Shown here piece after piece: positions 1 to 24,786 of a stretch of DNA of 29,288 nt. A model generated the notes under the pieces. That model was given only the letters and a program-made list of their open reading frames with translations. It ran no database searches and was not told the DNA's origin. Origin of the DNA: a virus. The stretch's first letter is position 1. Every line of letters starts with the position of its first letter. The position numbers were made by a program, and so were the translations under genes. Location of the stretch: the IMG/VR virus record IMGVR_UViG_3300006916_000253, positions 1-29,288 of that record; one strand, written 5' to 3'.

Positions 1-780
1 CTGTTGCTGTTTTTCGGCAATGGCCAACCACTCTTCATCGTTCGCCGTCATCGGGACCACCATAACACCGCCACGGTGTTCCACTTGGACTTTCTGGGGT
101 TGGTCATAACCCCGCATACGACTGAGAATTTCAATCGCCTTCAGCGGGTCCACAAGTTGCCGTTCTAGTCTTTGCCCGATCATGTCGCCGTCTTTATTAT
201 AGGAGCGTGTGACGACCGCCTTGCGGCATAAAGGGGAATCTGTCCCAACCGTCTGCAAAGTTGCCTCCATTGCGGCAGTCAGGAACATCTCGACTTTCGC
301 CTTTGATGCGATGGCGACACTTTCAACACGGGCGTTGAGTTCTTCCAAATAGGTCCGAGCTTCCTCTTTTTCAAATATCCCACGAATACAAGCCCACATC
401 TTGTCATTTGAAACCTTCTTCTTTGTTTTGAATGCCCCTTCAAACGCCTCCCGTGTTGGGATTGCTTGGGAGTATGCCAAGATGAATTTCCTCTCAGCTT
501 GGGTCAAGGTGTGAGGAGGTTCCACAAAACCAAGTTCGTCATGCACACCCTGAATTCCCTCTGAGAAGTCGCCCGGAGGAACAACTTGGGGGGCAACCCC
601 AAAGTTCACATCAAGCTCATTATCAGCACGATCCCCGCCTCCATCCGCCATCTTGTCAAGAGCGGCATTATATTGCCTGGCAATTTGGTGTTCCCTCTTC
701 GTCAGAACCCGTTGTTTCTCCATTTTTAGGCGGATCGGAACCATTTGGGCTTCCAAAAGTTCAAAGTCGGAATTAGTCAT
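1..780 (-). CDS. terS: Terminase small subunit (partial, 3' end off window)
   Basis: This protein would recognise the phage DNA packaging site and load the large terminase. 260 codons are open from ATG at 780 to the window edge with no stop. The visible C-terminal half carries features I associate with small terminases: a helical region (SKAKVEMFLTAAMEATLQ), a segment DPLKAIEILSRMRGYDQP, then GGVMVVP followed by DEEW. The N-terminal region is charged and helical, as expected of the DNA-binding part. The frame stays open upstream of 780 to a TAA near 897, and that stretch reads plausibly (EKFDTLRLFWELLW), so a GTG or TTG start further up is possible. It faces away from the replication genes across the control region. 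The large terminase should lie just past the left edge. The call rests on pattern recognition of the C-terminal half. Confidence 0.7.
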   Translation of the reverse strand, partial: MTNSDFELLEAQMVPIRLKMEKQRVLTKREHQIARQYNAALDKMADGGGDRADNELDVNFGVAPQVVPPGDFSEGIQGVHDELGFVEPPHTLTQAERKFILAYSQAIPTREAFEGAFKTKKKVSNDKMWACIRGIFEKEEARTYLEELNARVESVAIASKAKVEMFLTAAMEATLQTVGTDSPLCRKAVVTRSYNKDGDMIGQRLERQLVDPLKAIEILSRMRGYDQPQKVQVEHRGGVMVVPMTANDEEWLAIAEKQQQ

Positions 781-1306
781 CCAAAGAAGTTCCCAGAAAA
801 GCCTAAGAGTGTCAAATTTTTCCGCATTCACACTTCCAAGTTTCACCAAAAAAGTCCAAGAGTTCCAAATCTTTCTGTCCTCTCGTTTCTTTTTTCTTTC
901 TTAGTTTAACTAAAAATTAGCATTTAGGGGAGCAAGGGGAGTGGTCCCCCTTCTCTATACGAAAAAACATGAATCTGCCCCATAAAACACGTAAAAACAC
1001 CCCAAAAAAGCCCAAAACAAGCGGATTCCGGTCGCGCGTTAGGCAATCTGAAAATCAAAATTACTCCCCTGTATGCAATTTTCATATGCCCTGATCCCTG
1101 TCATAGAAAAGGATAAAGAGTACTAGGGGAGACTTGGGGAGTAAGAAAAGTGTAAATTACCCCTTTCTACGACAGGGGGGACAACAGGGGAGTAAAAAAA
1201 TCACTCCCCCAAAAAATCCTTATTTTTAACGATTTTATTTTTCGGCAAGGGGAGTGAGGAATTTACTCCCCCGGTCACTCCCCCTACGAAAAAAGAAGAT
1301 TTTGCC
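781..1306. other. Divergent noncoding control region
   Basis: No convincing gene lies between the small terminase on the minus strand and the first early gene on the plus strand. The interval holds the AGGGGAGT array (926-1284), two copies of TACGAAAAAA (958-967 and 1285-1294), a hairpin with arms AAGGGG and CCCCTT near 934-952, and an A/T-rich stretch around 1210-1243. A 41-codon ORF at 969-1094 overlaps the array and is not trusted. The position between divergent modules, next to the primase-helicase gene, fits a replication origin, a bidirectional operator region, or both (inference). Confidence 0.7.
926..1284. repeat. Array of 11 dispersed AGGGGAGT-type 8-mers, both orientations
   Basis: Plus-orientation copies are at 926 (AGGGGAGC), 935, 1125 (AGGGGAGA), 1135 (TGGGGAGT), 1186 and 1248. 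Reverse-orientation copies (ACTCCCCT or ACTCCCCC) are at 1063, 1203, 1265 and 1277, and a degenerate one (GGTCCCCC) is at 943. Spacing is irregular (9 to 120 bases), so this is not a simple tandem repeat. Several copies face each other as inverted pairs, for example 1186/1203 and 1248/1265. Such an arrangement suits a multi-site DNA-binding protein, as with iterons or a cooperative operator. The binding protein is not identified in this window. Confidence 0.75.
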
Positions 1307-1381: not shown

Positions 1382-1507
1382 ATGACAAAAGAACAGCTTT
1401 TTAAGGTCTTACGCCTTCATGGACTATGGCTAAAAAATGACAAAAGCGGCATCCAGGCAAATTGCTATGCCGCCATCACCTACCTTGAAATCTTGGGTCA
1501 GAAGTGA
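1382..1507 (+). CDS. Hypothetical 41-residue protein
   Basis: The function is unknown. The ATG at 1382 is preferred to a TTG at 1307, because that TTG is the -35 box of the putative promoter and the stretch between encodes a C/A-rich, low-complexity leader. The leader just upstream holds ACCAAGAAA units like those before other early genes. The product is small and mildly basic, with one hydrophobic helical segment near its C-terminus (CYAAITYLEIL). Its TGA overlaps the ATG of the primase-helicase gene (TGATG at 1505-1509), so it may act partly as a translational coupler. It is the first gene of the rightward module. Confidence 0.55.
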   Translation: MTKEQLFKVLRLHGLWLKNDKSGIQANCYAAITYLEILGQK

Positions 1508-4032
1508 TGGATTGCGAAGAAATTGACTTTGACGACTTCTCAAAACCTTCAACGGCAGCGGACCCATTGCGGTTCTTGCCGGAAGGCCTCAGAGAGTCCG
1601 CCAAACGGCTCCCCCCGGAGCAAGCCTACACAGTCCTTGAATTGGAGGAACCCGGAAAAGGCCACAATGCCAGCCTCCTCAAAGTTGCTTCCATTTGTTA
1701 CAAAATGGGGGTCCCTTTTGAGGATACATTCGATCACCTCCAAACCCAGTACGATCCGGAGCGGATCGACTACCGGACCGCACCCAGGCGGGCGGTTCAG
1801 CGTGTCTGGGATTGTGAAGGTCAACTAGAAAAGATCATCAACGAAAAGGATTTGGGTACTCCTTCAATCGAAGAAGAGGCACTGATGAAGTTCCGGCGGA
1901 CCCAAAAAGAGGAACTTTTGGAGCATTCACCACATCCTGAACCCAAGAAGGTTCGCCCCGTCGATATCATCAAGACTTTGTTCGAGCCTGACCACATCAT
2001 TAACCTTCAATTCTCCGCCTTTGAAGCGGGGACTCTTGCACGGGCCAAAGAGTTAGAGGAGCTATTCATCAACTCAAACACCAAAGCCAACGACTGGAAA
2101 TTTTTGAACCCTTCTCACTTCAAAAAAGTCGAAGGGGTAGTCAACCCGTTGGACAAAGAAGGACGGGTTGCGACCCGTTGTAATGCCAACGTCAAAAAAC
2201 GTGAGTGGATGGTGTTGGAGATGGACGATGACGACCAAGGGAAAGTGGAGCGGTTCACCGGATTCGCCCTCCAAATGGCGAAGTTCGCCCCTCTTCACAT
2301 GGCAATCGACACCGGGGGCAAGTCCTTGCATTTTTGGTTCGACCTCCGCAACTCCGAACGCCGGGTTACAAAAGAGTTTTTCAAGCTCGCCTGCCTACAC
2401 GGGGCAGACCCCAGAATGGCGGTCAAATCCCAGATTGCCAGGATGCCCAACGTGACCCCGGAGAAAGAAGGGCGGACACGGCAGACCATGCTGTATTTTG
2501 ACCCTGAAGGGAAGAAGAAACCCAGAGACCCAGACACAAAGAAAATCCGTTGGGATCTTGAAGGATTCGAAACTTACCTTGCCCTCAATAAACAGATCGA
2601 ATTCTTCTATCATGGCAAATCCAAGACCTTCTTTACAAAAGAGAACCAAGGGGCGTGGGTTGCCCTTGACCGGACATCCGTTAAAACTCACCTTGCCGAA
2701 ATCGGCTTCCGGGTTGACCGGATGGAAGGCGAACGGATTGCCCCAGTCGATGCGGTTGTCAATTCCTTACAATTGGACAAATCGGTTGATTCTGTACTTC
2801 CTGCCTTGTGTGGTCGCCGTGCTGGTTACTATGAAGAAAATGGGTTTCGGTACGTGGTCCAGAAGTCCCCTGATTGCATCAAACCCGCAAAGGGCCAATG
2901 GGTTACCATTGGGGCATTACTCAAAAGTCAATTTGATTGGTTCCACCCCCAACTTGAAATCTTTCTTGGTTGGTTGTCGTCCGGCGTCCGTGATTTTCAC
3001 AACGAAGGACGCCGGACGGCACGTTTTAGCCAAGCCCAATTCATGCACATTGCAGGGGAGAAAGACGCCGGGAAATCCCTTTTGCTTGTCCACATCCTCC
3101 CGGCGATGTTCGGGGGTCGGTCGTCATCCTGTATTGATCTATTCAAACGGACCTCTTCAGAGTTCAACGCCCACCTGTTTCAATCCGAACTCCTTTTCTT
3201 GGACGACACAAAGGAACTTGAAACCAACTATCAATTCCGGGCGGCGTTTGGTGAAAAGATCAAAGAGTTGACCGTCGGGGCAGGTGGCGGGGCAGACTTC
3301 CGGGGCATGTTCCAAGACAAAGTTCCGGTCCGCCCTTGGTGGCGATTCATTCGGATGATGAACACCGAACCCGCCACACTCGCCACGATCCCCCCGTTGG
3401 AAGACGGCGTCGAAGACAAGTTGATCCTCTTGCGTGCCCGGAGTATGGAGCATGGACCATTCGCCGCCATCAAACAAGTAAACCCGAATTGGTTCGAACA
3501 GGTCGAAAGGAACATCCGCAAAGAACTCCCACATTTCCTTTATTACCTGTTGTATGAACACAAGATCGCCGACGACATCAAGGACCCTTGGAACCGCTAC
3601 CCTGTCAAATCATTCAAAAACCCGGATCTCGTCATAGACTTCGAACAAACCGAACCCCACACTCAAGTTTTGTTCAAAATGGACAACGAGGCAAAACAAC
3701 GGCTTTTTTACAAGACCGGGTTTGACGAAGACGAAGACAATTACAAACAAATTGCCGCGCCTTGGTTTGGGACGGCGAACCAACTCTATGACATCCTCGC
3801 CCAATGTGGGACCAGGGCAAGTCAAATCCGGTTCCAAAAGGTCTGTCCATCGACACAAACTCTGGTTTCCCAACTCCGACGGTTGGAGAACCAGAAGATT
3901 AAACGGGCAACCTACTCTTTGAGACAGGACAAACTACCAAAGAAGAGACAAGGATACGAATATTGGATCATCAACCCGCCGGGATATATTGACCCAGAAG
4001 AAGGGGAAACCGACGATTCCTCTTGGGCGTGA
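1507..4032 (+). CDS. AEP-type primase fused to SF3 helicase
   Basis: This is the phage replicative primase-helicase, 841 residues. The central part shows archaeo-eukaryotic primase signatures: VLEMDDDD near residue 237 (acidic metal-binding motif), DTGGKSLHFWF near 266-276 (the sGxxxH-type motif) and RMPNVTPEK near 316. The C-terminal half is an SF3-like helicase. Its Walker A GEKDAGKS lies near 515-522, the Walker B-type LLFLDD near 562, and a sensor-like RMMNTEP further on. The N-terminal 130 residues are helical and unassigned. The start is ATG 1507, which overlaps the previous stop; a GTG one codon earlier is in frame. The protein ends in an acidic tail, GETDDSSWA, that resembles the tails of two other replication proteins here. 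The role is confident from motifs; the exact family name is not. Confidence 0.88.
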   Translation: MDCEEIDFDDFSKPSTAADPLRFLPEGLRESAKRLPPEQAYTVLELEEPGKGHNASLLKVASICYKMGVPFEDTFDHLQTQYDPERIDYRTAPRRAVQRVWDCEGQLEKIINEKDLGTPSIEEEALMKFRRTQKEELLEHSPHPEPKKVRPVDIIKTLFEPDHIINLQFSAFEAGTLARAKELEELFINSNTKANDWKFLNPSHFKKVEGVVNPLDKEGRVATRCNANVKKREWMVLEMDDDDQGKVERFTGFALQMAKFAPLHMAIDTGGKSLHFWFDLRNSERRVTKEFFKLACLHGADPRMAVKSQIARMPNVTPEKEGRTRQTMLYFDPEGKKKPRDPDTKKIRWDLEGFETYLALNKQIEFFYHGKSKTFFTKENQGAWVALDRTSVKTHLAEIGFRVDRMEGERIAPVDAVVNSLQLDKSVDSVLPALCGRRAGYYEENGFRYVVQKSPDCIKPAKGQWVTIGALLKSQFDWFHPQLEIFLGWLSSGVRDFHNEGRRTARFSQAQFMHIAGEKDAGKSLLLVHILPAMFGGRSSSCIDLFKRTSSEFNAHLFQSELLFLDDTKELETNYQFRAAFGEKIKELTVGAGGGADFRGMFQDKVPVRPWWRFIRMMNTEPATLATIPPLEDGVEDKLILLRARSMEHGPFAAIKQVNPNWFEQVERNIRKELPHFLYYLLYEHKIADDIKDPWNRYPVKSFKNPDLVIDFEQTEPHTQVLFKMDNEAKQRLFYKTGFDEDEDNYKQIAAPWFGTANQLYDILAQCGTRASQIRFQKVCPSTQTLVSQLRRLENQKIKRATYSLRQDKLPKKRQGYEYWIINPPGYIDPEEGETDDSSWA

Positions 4033-4211: not shown

Positions 4212-4379
4212 ATGAAAATCCAATCCATCAACCAAGCCAAACAAATTGCCAAGAATACTTTTGATCAAGATTCAAGAATCAATGGTGTGACCATTGAAAC
4301 AGTCTTCGGAGATTTCTTCATCACTAAAGACCTGACAGTTTACACTGATGAAGATGCGATCAAGAAGGGTCTCAAATGA
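4212..4379 (+). CDS. Hypothetical 55-residue protein
   Basis: I do not recognise this gene. The ATG at 4212 lies exactly 75 bases after the -35 box of the upstream promoter-like element and follows a C/A-rich leader containing CCAAGA units. A TTG at 4137 in the same frame is the -35 box and is not taken as the start. The product has an N-terminal helix (INQAKQIAKNTF) followed by segments with beta-strand character (GVTIETVFGDFFITKDLTVY), as in a small single-domain protein. It is the first of four short early genes, a position where phages often keep host-takeover proteins (inference). Confidence 0.6.
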   Translation: MKIQSINQAKQIAKNTFDQDSRINGVTIETVFGDFFITKDLTVYTDEDAIKKGLK

Positions 4380-4382
4380 GAC

Positions 4383-4430
4383 CCCAAGAACCCAAGAACC
4401 CAAGAACCCAAGAACCCAAGAACCCAAGAA
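4383..4430 (+). repeat. Perfect 8-bp tandem repeat, CCCAAGAA x 6
   Basis: Six exact copies fill the gap between the stop at 4379 and the ATG at 4437, ending six bases before that ATG. The unit resembles the AACCAAG or AAGAACC words in other early leaders, so it is probably an amplified version of the usual translation leader. Exact 8-mers of this kind are prone to slipped-strand change. Copy number would alter the length of the untranslated leader, not a reading frame. Confidence 0.95.
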
Positions 4431-8664: not shown

Positions 8665-9219
8665 ATGTTACACCCGCCTGGCGTCGTAAATACGGCGTCG
8701 GGCTTCGGGGGTATGGACCAGATAAAATTTGAGCCTTACCCCGATTGGCAGACAATGCCATTTCCTGGGGCTGCAAAAGAACCGTCGTTCCCGTGGCGGT
8801 ATCTTTTCGCCCCAATTGAAGGAGATCTTTTCACCGGGCAGATCTGTAAATACCACGGATGTACCAACAGCCCCCCAAAACATGCAAAATATTGTAATAC
8901 ATGCCATGGCCGAATGAGAGCAATCCGAGACCCTTGGCGGTATTATTTCAGGGCTTTGAAACTGTCCGCCAAGAAACGAAATATTGAATTCAAACTGACC
9001 TTTGAAGAGTTCCGGGCATTCTGTGACCAAACCAACTATCTCCAACTTGTCGGACGGTCCCCCGGAAGTTTCCATATTGACCGGGTTGACAACTTCAAAG
9101 GGTATGAAGTCGGCAACATCCAATTGATGGAGTCGTCCGCCAATGTCGGCAAAGGGAACAGGGAACGCCACCAGGAACCACCAACAGAGGAACAGTCTGA
9201 ACTTTGGGAGGATGATTAA
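8665..9219 (+). CDS. HNH endonuclease with Cys-rich finger
   Basis: A His-Me-finger nuclease of 184 residues. A zinc-site-like cluster Cys61-x4-Cys66 and Cys77-x2-Cys80 precedes a helical region (ALKLSAKKRNIEFKLTFEEF) typical of phage HNH proteins. The catalytic finger follows: His137-Ile-Asp139-Arg in FHIDRVDN, then GYEVGNIQL with Asn151, and SSANVGKGN. ATG 8665 and ATG 8713 are both usable; a TTG at 8623 would overlap the SSB gene. Its TAA overlaps the ATG of the polymerase gene (TAATG). It may be a free-standing homing nuclease next to the polymerase gene or a functional nicking enzyme; the sequence does not decide. Confidence 0.8.
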   Translation: MLHPPGVVNTASGFGGMDQIKFEPYPDWQTMPFPGAAKEPSFPWRYLFAPIEGDLFTGQICKYHGCTNSPPKHAKYCNTCHGRMRAIRDPWRYYFRALKLSAKKRNIEFKLTFEEFRAFCDQTNYLQLVGRSPGSFHIDRVDNFKGYEVGNIQLMESSANVGKGNRERHQEPPTEEQSELWEDD

Positions 9220-11570
9220 TGAGTAAAACCATCCACATTGATTTTGAAGTCTACTCTGAAGCACCGATTGGTGACGTTGGGGGTTTCAAATATGCTGAAC
9301 ACCCATCGACTGAAGTCTTGATCCTCGCCGCCTCAATGGATGAAGAAGATGCCCCAGTCCACACATGGGACGTGGTCAACTCAGTTGACGGGTCAGACGA
9401 ATGTTTGAAAGCCTTGGATCTTCTGCAACAGGCATTCAGGGACCATTGGTTGGTGTACGCTCACAACGTCTCTTTTGAAATTGCCATATTGCAACAGCTT
9501 TGCAAAAAGACGTTTGGGTTTGATTGGAACCCGGATGTGACCCTCTACCGATGCACCGCCGCCATGTGTCGCCGGGCGGCAATCCCTGCCAAACTGGGCC
9601 AAGCTTGTGAGTTTCTTGGACTCCCGCAACAGAAAGACAAGGAGGGCAAAGACTTGATCAAGAAATTTTCCGTGCCCCGAAAACCATCAAAGAAAGACCC
9701 ACGGACCCGGATTTTGCCGGAGGATGACCCGGAAGACTTCCAAAACTTCGTAGAGTATTGCCGTCAGGATGTCGTTGCCGAAAAGGCCCTCCACCGTGCC
9801 TTGCCAATGTTTGAACTGACCGGACCCGTCCTTGACTCTTTCCATATGGATCTCGCCATGAACATCCGGGGGATCCCGGTCAACATGGATGCCTTGAAAA
9901 AAGCCAAAGTCATCGCCGACAAATCCAAAGAACGGGAGACGCAGAAATTCGTCAACATGGTTGGGTTGAAACCCACCCAAAACGCCAAGTTTGGAGATTG
10001 GGCAAGGGCAAAGGGGTATCCGTTCAAATCAATGGACGCCGAACACGTCCGAAAATATCTGGGTCAGTCCGACCCGGTCAAAGATGCAGAGGTCAGAAAT
10101 GCCGTCCTTCTCCGCAAGAAAGTGACACACTCCGCCGCCGGGAAGGTAGACAAAATGATCCAATGTGCTTGTCAGGACAACCACGTCCGGGGGGCGTTGT
10201 TGTGGTCCGGGGCGGAAAGAACCCATCGTTGGGCAGGTCGTCTGATTCAACCCCAGAACTTTAAGCGGTCAAAGAAGTGGACCCCAATTGCCTATCAAGA
10301 CATCATCGACGGGGCGACCGTTGAAGACATACAGAATTTTTTCGGCGATCCGTTGGAAGTTATTGCAACGTCTATCCGCCATTTCATCCAAAGACCGGGT
10401 GGGAGGCAATTGGTCCAAGCTGATTATTCGGCGGTTGAAGCAAGGGGTGTAGCTTGGCTATGTGGCGAAGAGGCAACCTTGGATCTGTTCCGAACAGGGA
10501 AACCGATTTATGAACGAATGGGGGCGAAGATTTTCGGGGTGTCGGTCGAACAGGTGATCCGGGAACACAAAGAGAAGAACGACACAAAACGCTTCGTTGG
10601 GAAACAGGCGGTCCTTGGTTGTGGCTACCAAATGGGCTCGCCGAAGTTCCGTGGGACCTGCGAATCTTATGCCTTCAGAATCCCTCAAACAATGGTTGGT
10701 GAATTCAAACCCCGGTTCAAAAAGCAGATCCAGGAAGGGCAACGGATGGCATCTGAGGTCGAGGAATGGGATGATTGGCAAATTGACTTCCCGCCCTTTC
10801 ATTGGATGGAATGCAAGAACACCCAAGAAGGGGCAGAGTTCCGGGTGTGGGCATATCAAGAGAATGGCAAGCGGCGGTTGGTCAAGAACCCAGACACCCC
10901 GACCGACCAGGAATGGTATGATCTCGCCTATGACGACCTTGCATTCCGTGCGGTGTCTGCATTCCGGGAAGACAACCCGGCAGTCAAAGCGGCGTGGAAA
11001 TCCATTGACACCGCAGCAAAGGATGCGATCCGCAACCCCGGCAAGACTTTCTACGGGACTAAGAAACTCAAATTTCGGGTGACAGAAAAACTTGGGTTCC
11101 GTGCCTTGGTCATGTTCCTGCCCAACAAACACAATTTGATTTACCCATTGCCGAAACTCGTTTGGGGAGGCAAAGAGAAGGACGGCGAACCAGACATCAA
11201 CAACAACTTCAAAACCCAGATCACCTTCTTTGGCAAGATCGGTGAAGCCATGAAAGGCAACGCCGATCCGAGATTTCCAACGATGACAGGTTGGGGACGT
11301 TGCAAAACCTACGGCGGCAGCCTCCTTGAAAATGCCACGCAAGCCATTTGTGGGGATCTCATGGCAAACGGGGCAGTCAATGCTTGGAAAGCGGGATGGT
11401 TACCATACATGTTGATCCACGACGAAGCAATCACCCCGGCCAAAAAAGAAGGCGATTTGGGATTGCAGACAAAAAAGCTTTGCAACCTTTTATGCGGTTT
11501 GCCAGATTGGGCAGAAGGTTTCCCATTGGAAGCGGAAGGGGACATCATACCATTTTACATGAAAACATGA
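9219..11570 (+). CDS. polA: Family A DNA polymerase with 3'-5' exonuclease
   Basis: The replicative polymerase, 783 residues, with no 5' nuclease domain. Exonuclease motifs are IDFEVYSE (residues 7-14), AHNVSFEIAIL near 80 and YCRQD near 183. Polymerase motif A is QADYSAVEARG with catalytic Asp402. Motif B is Arg458-x3-Lys462-x3-Leu466-x3-Tyr470. Motif C is His734-Asp735-Glu736. Leu466 occupies the position of E. coli Phe762, the residue discussed in viral ecology as separating fast lytic (Phe) from slower, often temperate (Leu) phages. Translation is coupled to the HNH gene by TAATG. All catalytic residues are present. Confidence 0.95.
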   Translation: MSKTIHIDFEVYSEAPIGDVGGFKYAEHPSTEVLILAASMDEEDAPVHTWDVVNSVDGSDECLKALDLLQQAFRDHWLVYAHNVSFEIAILQQLCKKTFGFDWNPDVTLYRCTAAMCRRAAIPAKLGQACEFLGLPQQKDKEGKDLIKKFSVPRKPSKKDPRTRILPEDDPEDFQNFVEYCRQDVVAEKALHRALPMFELTGPVLDSFHMDLAMNIRGIPVNMDALKKAKVIADKSKERETQKFVNMVGLKPTQNAKFGDWARAKGYPFKSMDAEHVRKYLGQSDPVKDAEVRNAVLLRKKVTHSAAGKVDKMIQCACQDNHVRGALLWSGAERTHRWAGRLIQPQNFKRSKKWTPIAYQDIIDGATVEDIQNFFGDPLEVIATSIRHFIQRPGGRQLVQADYSAVEARGVAWLCGEEATLDLFRTGKPIYERMGAKIFGVSVEQVIREHKEKNDTKRFVGKQAVLGCGYQMGSPKFRGTCESYAFRIPQTMVGEFKPRFKKQIQEGQRMASEVEEWDDWQIDFPPFHWMECKNTQEGAEFRVWAYQENGKRRLVKNPDTPTDQEWYDLAYDDLAFRAVSAFREDNPAVKAAWKSIDTAAKDAIRNPGKTFYGTKKLKFRVTEKLGFRALVMFLPNKHNLIYPLPKLVWGGKEKDGEPDINNNFKTQITFFGKIGEAMKGNADPRFPTMTGWGRCKTYGGSLLENATQAICGDLMANGAVNAWKAGWLPYMLIHDEAITPAKKEGDLGLQTKKLCNLLCGLPDWAEGFPLEAEGDIIPFYMKT

Positions 11571-22281: not shown

Positions 22282-24786
22282 TTATGCGGTCCTTTGCATT
22301 CCAAAATTACGGGTCAGGGACGGGACGAAAGACCCACCGCCATAGTTTGAATCTTTGGTCAATTTTGCTTCGGTCGCCTGAACCGCCTCTTGGATAATGA
22401 TTTGGCGTTCCCCACTTGGTAACATGACCGATTCAGCTTTGTCGATCCGTCCAGTTGTCTGGTTGATAATGGTGATCCCCCCGGACCCGCCACGGTTGGC
22501 AATGTCGAAGAGTTTCGCCTGTTGTTGTTTGTTCAGGATCATCTCACCTGAATTCACATTGGCAACCACGTTGTCACCTGAAAAAGAGGTTCCGGGGACA
22601 ATGCCCCCTTGTTCAAAACTTCCTCCGACGGGGGCGGCACGGATGGCGGCAACATTTGCAATCCCGGCGGCAACGGCAGCACCAGCAGCAGCGACACCCA
22701 ACGCCGGACCGACAACAGGAATCCCCGCCATTGCGGAATAGGCGGCATTTGCAGATTTATAGGTGTCAATGATCGCCTGAGTGACGGCAACCGCCTTCTG
22801 AGCCTTCAACGCCGCCTGACCAATCTTGGAAAGTGTCTCGTTGTTGGATTGGGCGAGTTTGGCATAGTTGCCAAACATATCTTTTGCCATGCCCAACCCC
22901 TGAATCATCCTTTCTTGCTCCATCTGAGCAATCAAATCATTCTTCTCCCGTTCCAGCTCAGCAACCATCTTGTTGCGTTCTTCCCCGGTCAGGGATTCGG
23001 CATTCATAATGATCTCATGCCGTCGAGCATAGAAGTCTTTCAACTCATCAAGTTCAAGTTGCCAGTTGGATCTTTGGAAATCCAATTCACGAATCTTGCG
23101 GTCTTCAAAGCTGGAAATGTTCTTTTCGTATTCCTGCCGCAACTTCTCTTCCATTTCGGCCCGGATCTCAGAACCCGCAACTGTGTTCTTGCGGACGATC
23201 TCCAACCGTTTCAAATAAGACCCTTCCAACGCCCTTTCTTCAGCACGTAAAGAATCAAGCAACTGAGTAAATTCTTTGTCCGCCTGTTCAGGACCAAGGC
23301 GTTCGTCTTCGGGTCTTTTCAGTAGTTGGGGGACTTCGGATGGTGTGATCCTGTACTTGCCCAACCTGTCACCTTCAACCTTTGGGGTGTTCAGTTTCTT
23401 TTCAAGTTCTTCCCGGAGTCTTTGAGCTTTCGCCCGTGTGTCGTCGATTTTGTCCCCAACATCTGTGTACCCGTCCCAGATCTCTTCAAAGGCATCCCCG
23501 GCAACTTCTTTCCAGAAACCCACTTCAATCCGGGTTTGTGCAATGGCGGAATTGATCCGTTCCCCGGACTTCTCCATTGCCTCGGCCCGTGCATCCATCG
23601 CCTTGACGAAGGCATCCCTGACCCCTGTTTTGTCCACCGGGTTCAATGCCCGCCCGATGGCGACACCAAAAGCGGCGGCGGTTTCAAGAAGTTCCTCAAA
23701 TTTGGCAACGAAGATTTCAACAACCGCCTTTGCTGATTCTTTCGCCATCATTGCAAGGGTGGTAAACCCTGCCCCTATGCCTTTCCAGAATGCTGTAAAT
23801 GCGGCGGGGGCGGTTTGAATGGATTTGATGAGAAACTCCATGACGTCCCCGACTTCTTCCCCCCATGCATCTGTTGAGTTTTCAACGATGGAGCTTGTGA
23901 AATCCATAATTGCGGCGAAGTCATCTGCCCAAGATTCAAAGCCAACTGTCCACGCCTTCAATTCCGCTTCAACAACGCCGGACTCCATCAGGTGATTGAG
24001 TTCGGTCAAAGCATCAATCCCAAGTTGCAATGATTCTTTCATTAGGTCACCAACCCCGGCTTCATTGATGTTCCGCCAGAGTTGGTTCCATGCATCCCCA
24101 AGGTTGGAGACTTTGCCCCCAAGGGTGTCCATCTGGTTCGCCATTGCCCCGGCAAACTCATTTTCCCCAAGACTCATCAAATACTTTTCAATTTCTTCAG
24201 CATTCTTTCCAATGGTCTTGGTGACGCCCCGGAAGGTGAAAGATACCTGGTCGCCTTGCTGTTTCGCCTTGATCCCAAATTCTTTGAGTCGTTCGAACTC
24301 GTTGGTCGTGGCATCGGCAACCGCTTCAATGAGTTGGGTCAGATCCTTCCCCATTGCCGCCGCCGTGTTGCCGTAAGACTCCAAGGCACGTTCGGAAGGT
24401 GTCAGACCAAGATTCGTCAACTTGGTGAATGCTTCAAGGGATTGTTCAAGGGCGTAGGGTGTCCGGGTTGCGAAACCCTCCAACGCTTCAAAGGCGGCAT
24501 TGGCGTCTTCGATTGACCCCGTGGCGGTCTTCAGACGTGCTTTGAAGTCTTGGGTCGCAACGCCGATGTCTAAAGCTTTGCGAAAACTTGCCGCCGCTGC
24601 CCCTGCTGCAAGAAGGACAGGGATGGTCCGCCGGAAGGAAGAGGCAAGCCCCCTGTTGGAGTTGGCAAGGCGTCCGCTTGCCTGCTCCGTTGATTGGGCG
24701 GAACGTCCAAGGCGGTCCAAGCGTCGTGACGCCTGCGAAACTTCATTCGACCGGACCTCTAAAACTAAAGACTCCACTTGTGGCAT
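22282..24786 (-). CDS. Tape measure protein
   Basis: The 834-residue ruler that sets tail length. The N-terminal region (residues 75-230) matches the tape_meas_nterm type: VATQDFKARLKTATGS, FATRTPYALEQSLEAFTKLTNLGL, and a final DAWNQLWRNI. Hydrophobic segments lie near 52-70 and 690-725 (VVGPALGVAAAGAAVAAGIANVAAI), as expected for a protein ejected across membranes. A long charged coiled-coil region spans roughly 500-620. By the usual relation of about 0.15 nm per residue, a tail near 125 nm is expected (inference). It starts 14 bases downstream of an intrinsic terminator. Confidence 0.92.
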   Translation of the reverse strand: MPQVESLVLEVRSNEVSQASRRLDRLGRSAQSTEQASGRLANSNRGLASSFRRTIPVLLAAGAAAASFRKALDIGVATQDFKARLKTATGSIEDANAAFEALEGFATRTPYALEQSLEAFTKLTNLGLTPSERALESYGNTAAAMGKDLTQLIEAVADATTNEFERLKEFGIKAKQQGDQVSFTFRGVTKTIGKNAEEIEKYLMSLGENEFAGAMANQMDTLGGKVSNLGDAWNQLWRNINEAGVGDLMKESLQLGIDALTELNHLMESGVVEAELKAWTVGFESWADDFAAIMDFTSSIVENSTDAWGEEVGDVMEFLIKSIQTAPAAFTAFWKGIGAGFTTLAMMAKESAKAVVEIFVAKFEELLETAAAFGVAIGRALNPVDKTGVRDAFVKAMDARAEAMEKSGERINSAIAQTRIEVGFWKEVAGDAFEEIWDGYTDVGDKIDDTRAKAQRLREELEKKLNTPKVEGDRLGKYRITPSEVPQLLKRPEDERLGPEQADKEFTQLLDSLRAEERALEGSYLKRLEIVRKNTVAGSEIRAEMEEKLRQEYEKNISSFEDRKIRELDFQRSNWQLELDELKDFYARRHEIIMNAESLTGEERNKMVAELEREKNDLIAQMEQERMIQGLGMAKDMFGNYAKLAQSNNETLSKIGQAALKAQKAVAVTQAIIDTYKSANAAYSAMAGIPVVGPALGVAAAGAAVAAGIANVAAIRAAPVGGSFEQGGIVPGTSFSGDNVVANVNSGEMILNKQQQAKLFDIANRGGSGGITIINQTTGRIDKAESVMLPSGERQIIIQEAVQATEAKLTKDSNYGGGSFVPSLTRNFGMQRTA

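Follow-up and report, generated by a model that had tools for sequence, protein, structure and literature searches.

What are the short, near-identical sites between the packaging and replication genes of this phage for, and which protein reads them? Our analysis covers one virus record, 29,288 bases long and lacking end repeats, which is called the window throughout. An earlier note on it had described eleven near-identical 8-mers in 926–1284 and suggested an origin or a two-way operator. The location and the two orientations hold up, but we count ten sites with at most one mismatch to AGGGGAGT in this interval, of 21 such sites window-wide. On the sequence evidence, we think it likely that the array is an iteron replication origin of the P4-alpha/SaPI-Rep type, read by the adjacent primase-helicase.

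Clustering of these short sites, in both orientations, is far above chance in the window. The ten sites start at 926, 935, 1063, 1125, 1135, 1186, 1203, 1248, 1265, and 1277, with those at 1063, 1203, 1265, and 1277 on the minus strand. Exact AGGGGAGT was found four times window-wide, each time in the 926–1284 interval (0.8 expected). The GGGGAGT core occurs eight times in the 29,288 bases, four times per strand, and all eight copies are inside 936–1283; as the earlier note's reading would have it, the word is not equally frequent elsewhere. The densest 7-mer cluster at the array has 8 copies per 400 bp, and the shuffle maximum for any 7-mer was 5 copies per 400 bp, whether the region was shuffled (2000 dinucleotide shuffles) or the whole window (60 shuffles). 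A second large 7-mer cluster in the window, CCAAGAA (9 copies per 400 bp from 4185), lies within and around an 8-bp tandem repeat (4379–4430), an array of 6.5 copies of AGAACCCA right behind the helicase gene.

The sites are arranged as direct and inverted pairs. A tight direct pair on the plus strand, 9 bp apart, is formed by AGGGGAGC (926–933) and AGGGGAGT (935–942), together spanning 926–942, and is followed by a single minus-strand AGGGGAGT at 1063–1070. The second direct pair, also on the plus strand and 10 bp apart, comprises AGGGGAGA (1125–1132) and TGGGGAGT (1135–1142), within 1125–1142. Two inverted pairs that the earlier note missed lie at 1187–1209 and 1249–1271; both read GGGGAGT-N9-ACTCCCC (in full, GGGGAGTRA-N5-TYACTCCCC), and the second begins 46 bp past the opposite site at 1203. 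The last site, GGGGGAGT on the minus strand (1277–1284), is a direct repeat of 1265–1272 at 12 bp. No tandem repeat was called within the array, in agreement with the earlier view that irregular spacing and mixed orientation do not make a simple tandem repeat. A plasmid-type RepA iteron origin, with its longer, regular tandem direct repeats, was rejected because the window sites face both ways at irregular intervals.

Between the inverted pairs is an A/T-rich segment (1210–1248), a candidate DNA-unwinding element, so that site sets flank an A/T-rich stretch. The lowest-GC 50 bp near the array (1193–1242, GC 0.22) overlap this space. Cumulative GC skew has its minimum at 24364 and no turning point at the array, and an Rfam search gave no match. 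Scanning viral contigs for the GGGGAGTRA-N5-TYACTCCCC palindrome returned 35 loci, but outside the same phage these were single palindromes with no cluster. More than 30 of the contigs (L008–L041), mostly A/T-rich, carry one exact copy each and are unrelated to the window array; many of them have the common context GATGACGG....

The array sits between the terminase small subunit (TerS) gene and a DUF5906 primase-helicase gene. The TerS gene (1–849, minus strand) is divergent from the helicase gene and runs off the window, but is complete in contig L001. The primase-helicase gene, the candidate origin reader, occupies 1504–4032 on the plus strand (starting with GTG at 1504 or ATG at 1507), 227 bp past the last array site, and the interval holds a 41-aa open frame without a family match (1382–1507, plus strand). 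Rightward, the gene order is DUF5906 helicase, DUF2800, dATP/dGTP hydrolase, Enc34-type SSB, family A DNA polymerase, and SNF2 helicase, while the tail genes run leftward. The family A polymerase (9219–11570) has extra stretches at about residues 492–554; of six phage relatives aligned with it, at least five lack them. A position between divergent genes would also suit the two-way operator, at which a phage repressor or activator would bind cooperatively and control divergent packaging and replication promoters. We regard this as unlikely; a search of 800–1520 for sigma-70-like promoters found none, and further evidence comes from the relatives and the survey described below.

Two contigs, L001 and L002, come from the same phage and carry the array in near-identical sequence, adding no divergence. 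Divergent relatives were collected through an alignment scan with the family A polymerase, which gave 80 loci, and a scan with the helicases of the window and of one of these loci, L048, which gave L129, L130–L134, and L135. The L048 helicase is 40% identical to that of the window over 785 aa, and the two are syntenic through DUF2800-SSB-polA-VRR-SNF2. Of the 12 AGGGCAG sites in the L048 locus, 9 lie directly upstream of the helicase gene, on both strands, and include one GGGCAGT-N9-ACTGCCC pair with the same 9-bp gap as in the window; this array falls into two halves that nearly mirror each other around an A/T-rich gap. Across L130–L134, invariant columns make up 59 of 60 within the sites and 93 of 223 between them (p = 1e-17); the choice of footprint columns favours this count, as a column was taken where three or more of the five sequences have the word. 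Conservation in relatives, a check set by the earlier note, is seen as sites in the same place in L048 and as sites kept while the intervening sequence changes in L130–L134.

These relatives bear on three other readings of the array. For the operator, L048 and L130–L134 have an 81-aa frame (L048:1748–1993), helix-turn-helix-like by eye and divergent from the helicase gene across the array, but it has no counterpart at the equivalent position in the window. A pac-type packaging site, bound by the adjacent terminase small subunit, is suggested by the divergent TerS neighbour in the window and again by L129 (helicase 49% identical), where AGGGYA sites at 802–1121 (11 of 26 in the locus) adjoin TerS (phrog_1482, 2.6e-22) and the helicase gene is 3.9 kb away. 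In L048, however, TerS is not beside the array, whose neighbours are the helix-turn-helix-like small frame and a frame matching a minor head protein; with the further evidence below, we judge the packaging site highly improbable. The distance in L129 could also suit an iteron origin read by another protein that then loads the helicase, which we consider very unlikely for reasons also given below. L135, with a helicase 47% identical, had no detectable array; this record (L135:1–3741), the sole helicase relative from the genome collection, is a metagenome-assembled Rickettsiales record with a tRNA-like stretch before the helicase.

The iteron origin that we favour has close parallels in satellite P4. 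P4 also has type 1 iterons of 8 bp, oriented both ways, and a primase-helicase (alpha) protein. Its iterons are annotated at 9310 (−), 9320 (−), 9331 (−), 9353 (+), 9396 (−), and 9406 (−) in ori, and at 4314 (+), 4323 (+), 4366 (−), 4384 (−), and 4398 (+) in crr. Direct pairs 9–10 bp apart and opposite gaps of 43 bp are found in both, compared with direct-pair spacings of 9, 10, and 12 bp and one opposite gap of 46 bp (1203 minus to 1249 plus) in the window; the remaining window gaps (16, 51, and 127 bp) depart from the P4 spacing. The core also differs (GGGGAGT vs GGTGAAC in P4), and the window has one array, 5′ of the gene, whereas P4 crr adjoins the 3′ end of the alpha gene and P4 ori is away from alpha.

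Origins of phage-inducible islands and related elements offer a second comparison. In PICIs, two iteron sets flank an A/T-rich region (PMC6092414), and repeats are bound by the C-terminal domain of SaPI Rep and of Cch2 (PMC7581432). As in the window, SaPI/PICI elements have iteron sets around an A/T-rich region beside an initiator-helicase gene (Rep or Pri-Rep), and their iterons are element-specific (PMC6092414, PMC7581432), just as words are private in the phages we surveyed. They differ in being satellites with the origin directly 3′ of rep, while the window comes from a tailed phage that encodes its own polymerase module and has its array 5′ of the helicase gene. SCCmec Cch2 is a self-loading helicase whose C-terminal dsDNA-binding domain reads short repeats beside its own gene (PMC7581432), although its putative origin consists of three 5-nt direct repeats alone and is not from a phage. 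Streptococcus thermophilus phage Sfi21, which has other replication genes than the window, has an annotated non-coding origin (L136:14488–14785) at the 3′ end of a putative primase gene.

We then surveyed arrays across 87 partly related loci, comprising the window, the best 80 polA matches, and six phage records. Blind to gene positions, we picked in each locus the best mixed-orientation 7-mer array, with approximate p-values, and primase-helicase genes were subsequently placed by phmmer. The detector recovers P4 ori and crr, but because it picks the P4 integrase arm sites as well, finding an array does not by itself prove an origin. It also misses some origins, since the annotated origin of Sfi21, used as a positive control, gave no mixed-orientation array. 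Arrays were found in 36 of 63 loci with an identified helicase vs 2 of 24 without, leaving 27 of the 63 with none at the survey threshold; the same threshold was passed by 2 of 261 shuffled loci.

In 34 of the 36 loci that have both, the array and the helicase gene are no more than 400 bp apart, with 4.1 expected from random placement. The 36 helicases fall into 21 clusters at 60% identity, so these loci are partly non-independent. Of the two counted misses, L126 also has a GTTGACA array (6/6) right behind the helicase, and in L120 the array is 760 bp away. Each phage or clade has a word of its own; dozens of other phages thus bear differently worded arrays beside a primase-helicase gene. Most arrays (32 of 36) are nearest the 3′ end of the helicase gene, mostly 1–25 bp off, rather than between divergent promoters, which makes an operator less likely. 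Strong GTATCCA and GTCAACA arrays directly 3′ of the VapE genes of phiFL4A (L044:11354–11650) and phiCDKH02 (L047:11446–11694) are predicted origins in named phages. Both abut the VapE gene and are separated from TerS by the SNF2 helicase, an order that argues against a packaging site. As for another reader, the primase-helicase, the one gene type sought, was consistently found beside the surveyed arrays.

Common spacing rules were observed across the survey. Adjacent sites 5–14 bp apart have the same orientation in 130 of 138 cases and opposite orientations in 8, while all 23 pairs 45–49 bp apart are opposite and none are the same. We propose a spacing code of direct pairs at 8–12 bp and opposite sites at 45–49 bp. 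The latter spacing matches the P4 origin, a further point against the operator.

The word also tracks the C-terminal tail of the helicase, not its N-terminus, among VapE phages, a sister family of the DUF5906 helicase in the window. In 22 of these phages, motif similarity correlated with C-terminal tail identity (r 0.33, Mantel p 0.0025), including after removal of N-terminal identity (r 0.34, p 0.002), and for the N-terminal 300 residues the values were r 0.05 and p 0.25. This covariation parallels the C-terminal binding of repeats by SaPI Rep and Cch2 (PMC7581432), and it counts against both the terminase and another protein as the reader. Taken with conservation in the relatives, the survey, and the P4 geometry, it is the iteron-like origin, of the two functions proposed earlier, that is favoured.

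The earlier note could name no site-binding protein in the window, which is probably wrong, as the neighbouring primase-helicase (1504–4032) is the best candidate reader. Its N-terminal half has motifs, LEMD and TGGKSLHFW, that look like those of archaeo-eukaryotic primases. It scores at the cut-off against PF19263 (27.6 bits, residues 517–622, in the P-loop/helicase region), and the L048 helicase scores above it. Elsewhere in the survey, the helicases of L044, L047, L050, and L063 match VapE and/or DUF5906, and those of L042 and L046 match AAA_25. A tblastn search of phage records with the window helicase gave no matches at 1e-5, the best being weak Caulobacter phage matches (E 0.2–0.4). A full-length structure model was poor (pLDDT 43) and was dropped. 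The C-terminal 140 residues, modelled separately, contain a predicted winged helix (pLDDT about 88–91 over residues 51–90 of these 140); Foldseek found nothing below E 0.79 with this model, and its structural matches were generic winged-helix proteins, with a best Z of 6.7 that is common for winged helices.

From this, we infer binding, hexamer loading, melting, and origin activity as follows. The primase-helicase would bind the GGGGAGT sites through its predicted C-terminal winged-helix domain and assemble on the site clusters, by analogy as hexamers. It would then melt the A/T-rich segment near 1194–1248 and load itself. Its primase half would prime, and extension would fall to the phage family A DNA polymerase and SSB, whose genes lie downstream. 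The main weaknesses of this origin reading are the 5′ position of the array, the exceptions L129 and L135, and covariation that comes from a sister family.

To our knowledge, most tailed phages lack a mapped replication origin. We give about even chances to a general rule, in which the VapE/DUF5906 helicases (in some cases AAA_25) of DUF2800-SSB-polA-SNF2 phages would be self-loading origin readers, each with a private word and all with a common spacing code. Such phages would therefore be the same replicon type as the P4 and PICI satellites. The association of array and helicase would allow an origin and its reader to be predicted from sequence alone in dozens of phages, and the spacing rule can be tested by mutation. 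If the rule is true, satellites and phages would be within reach of the same origin-protein exchanges.
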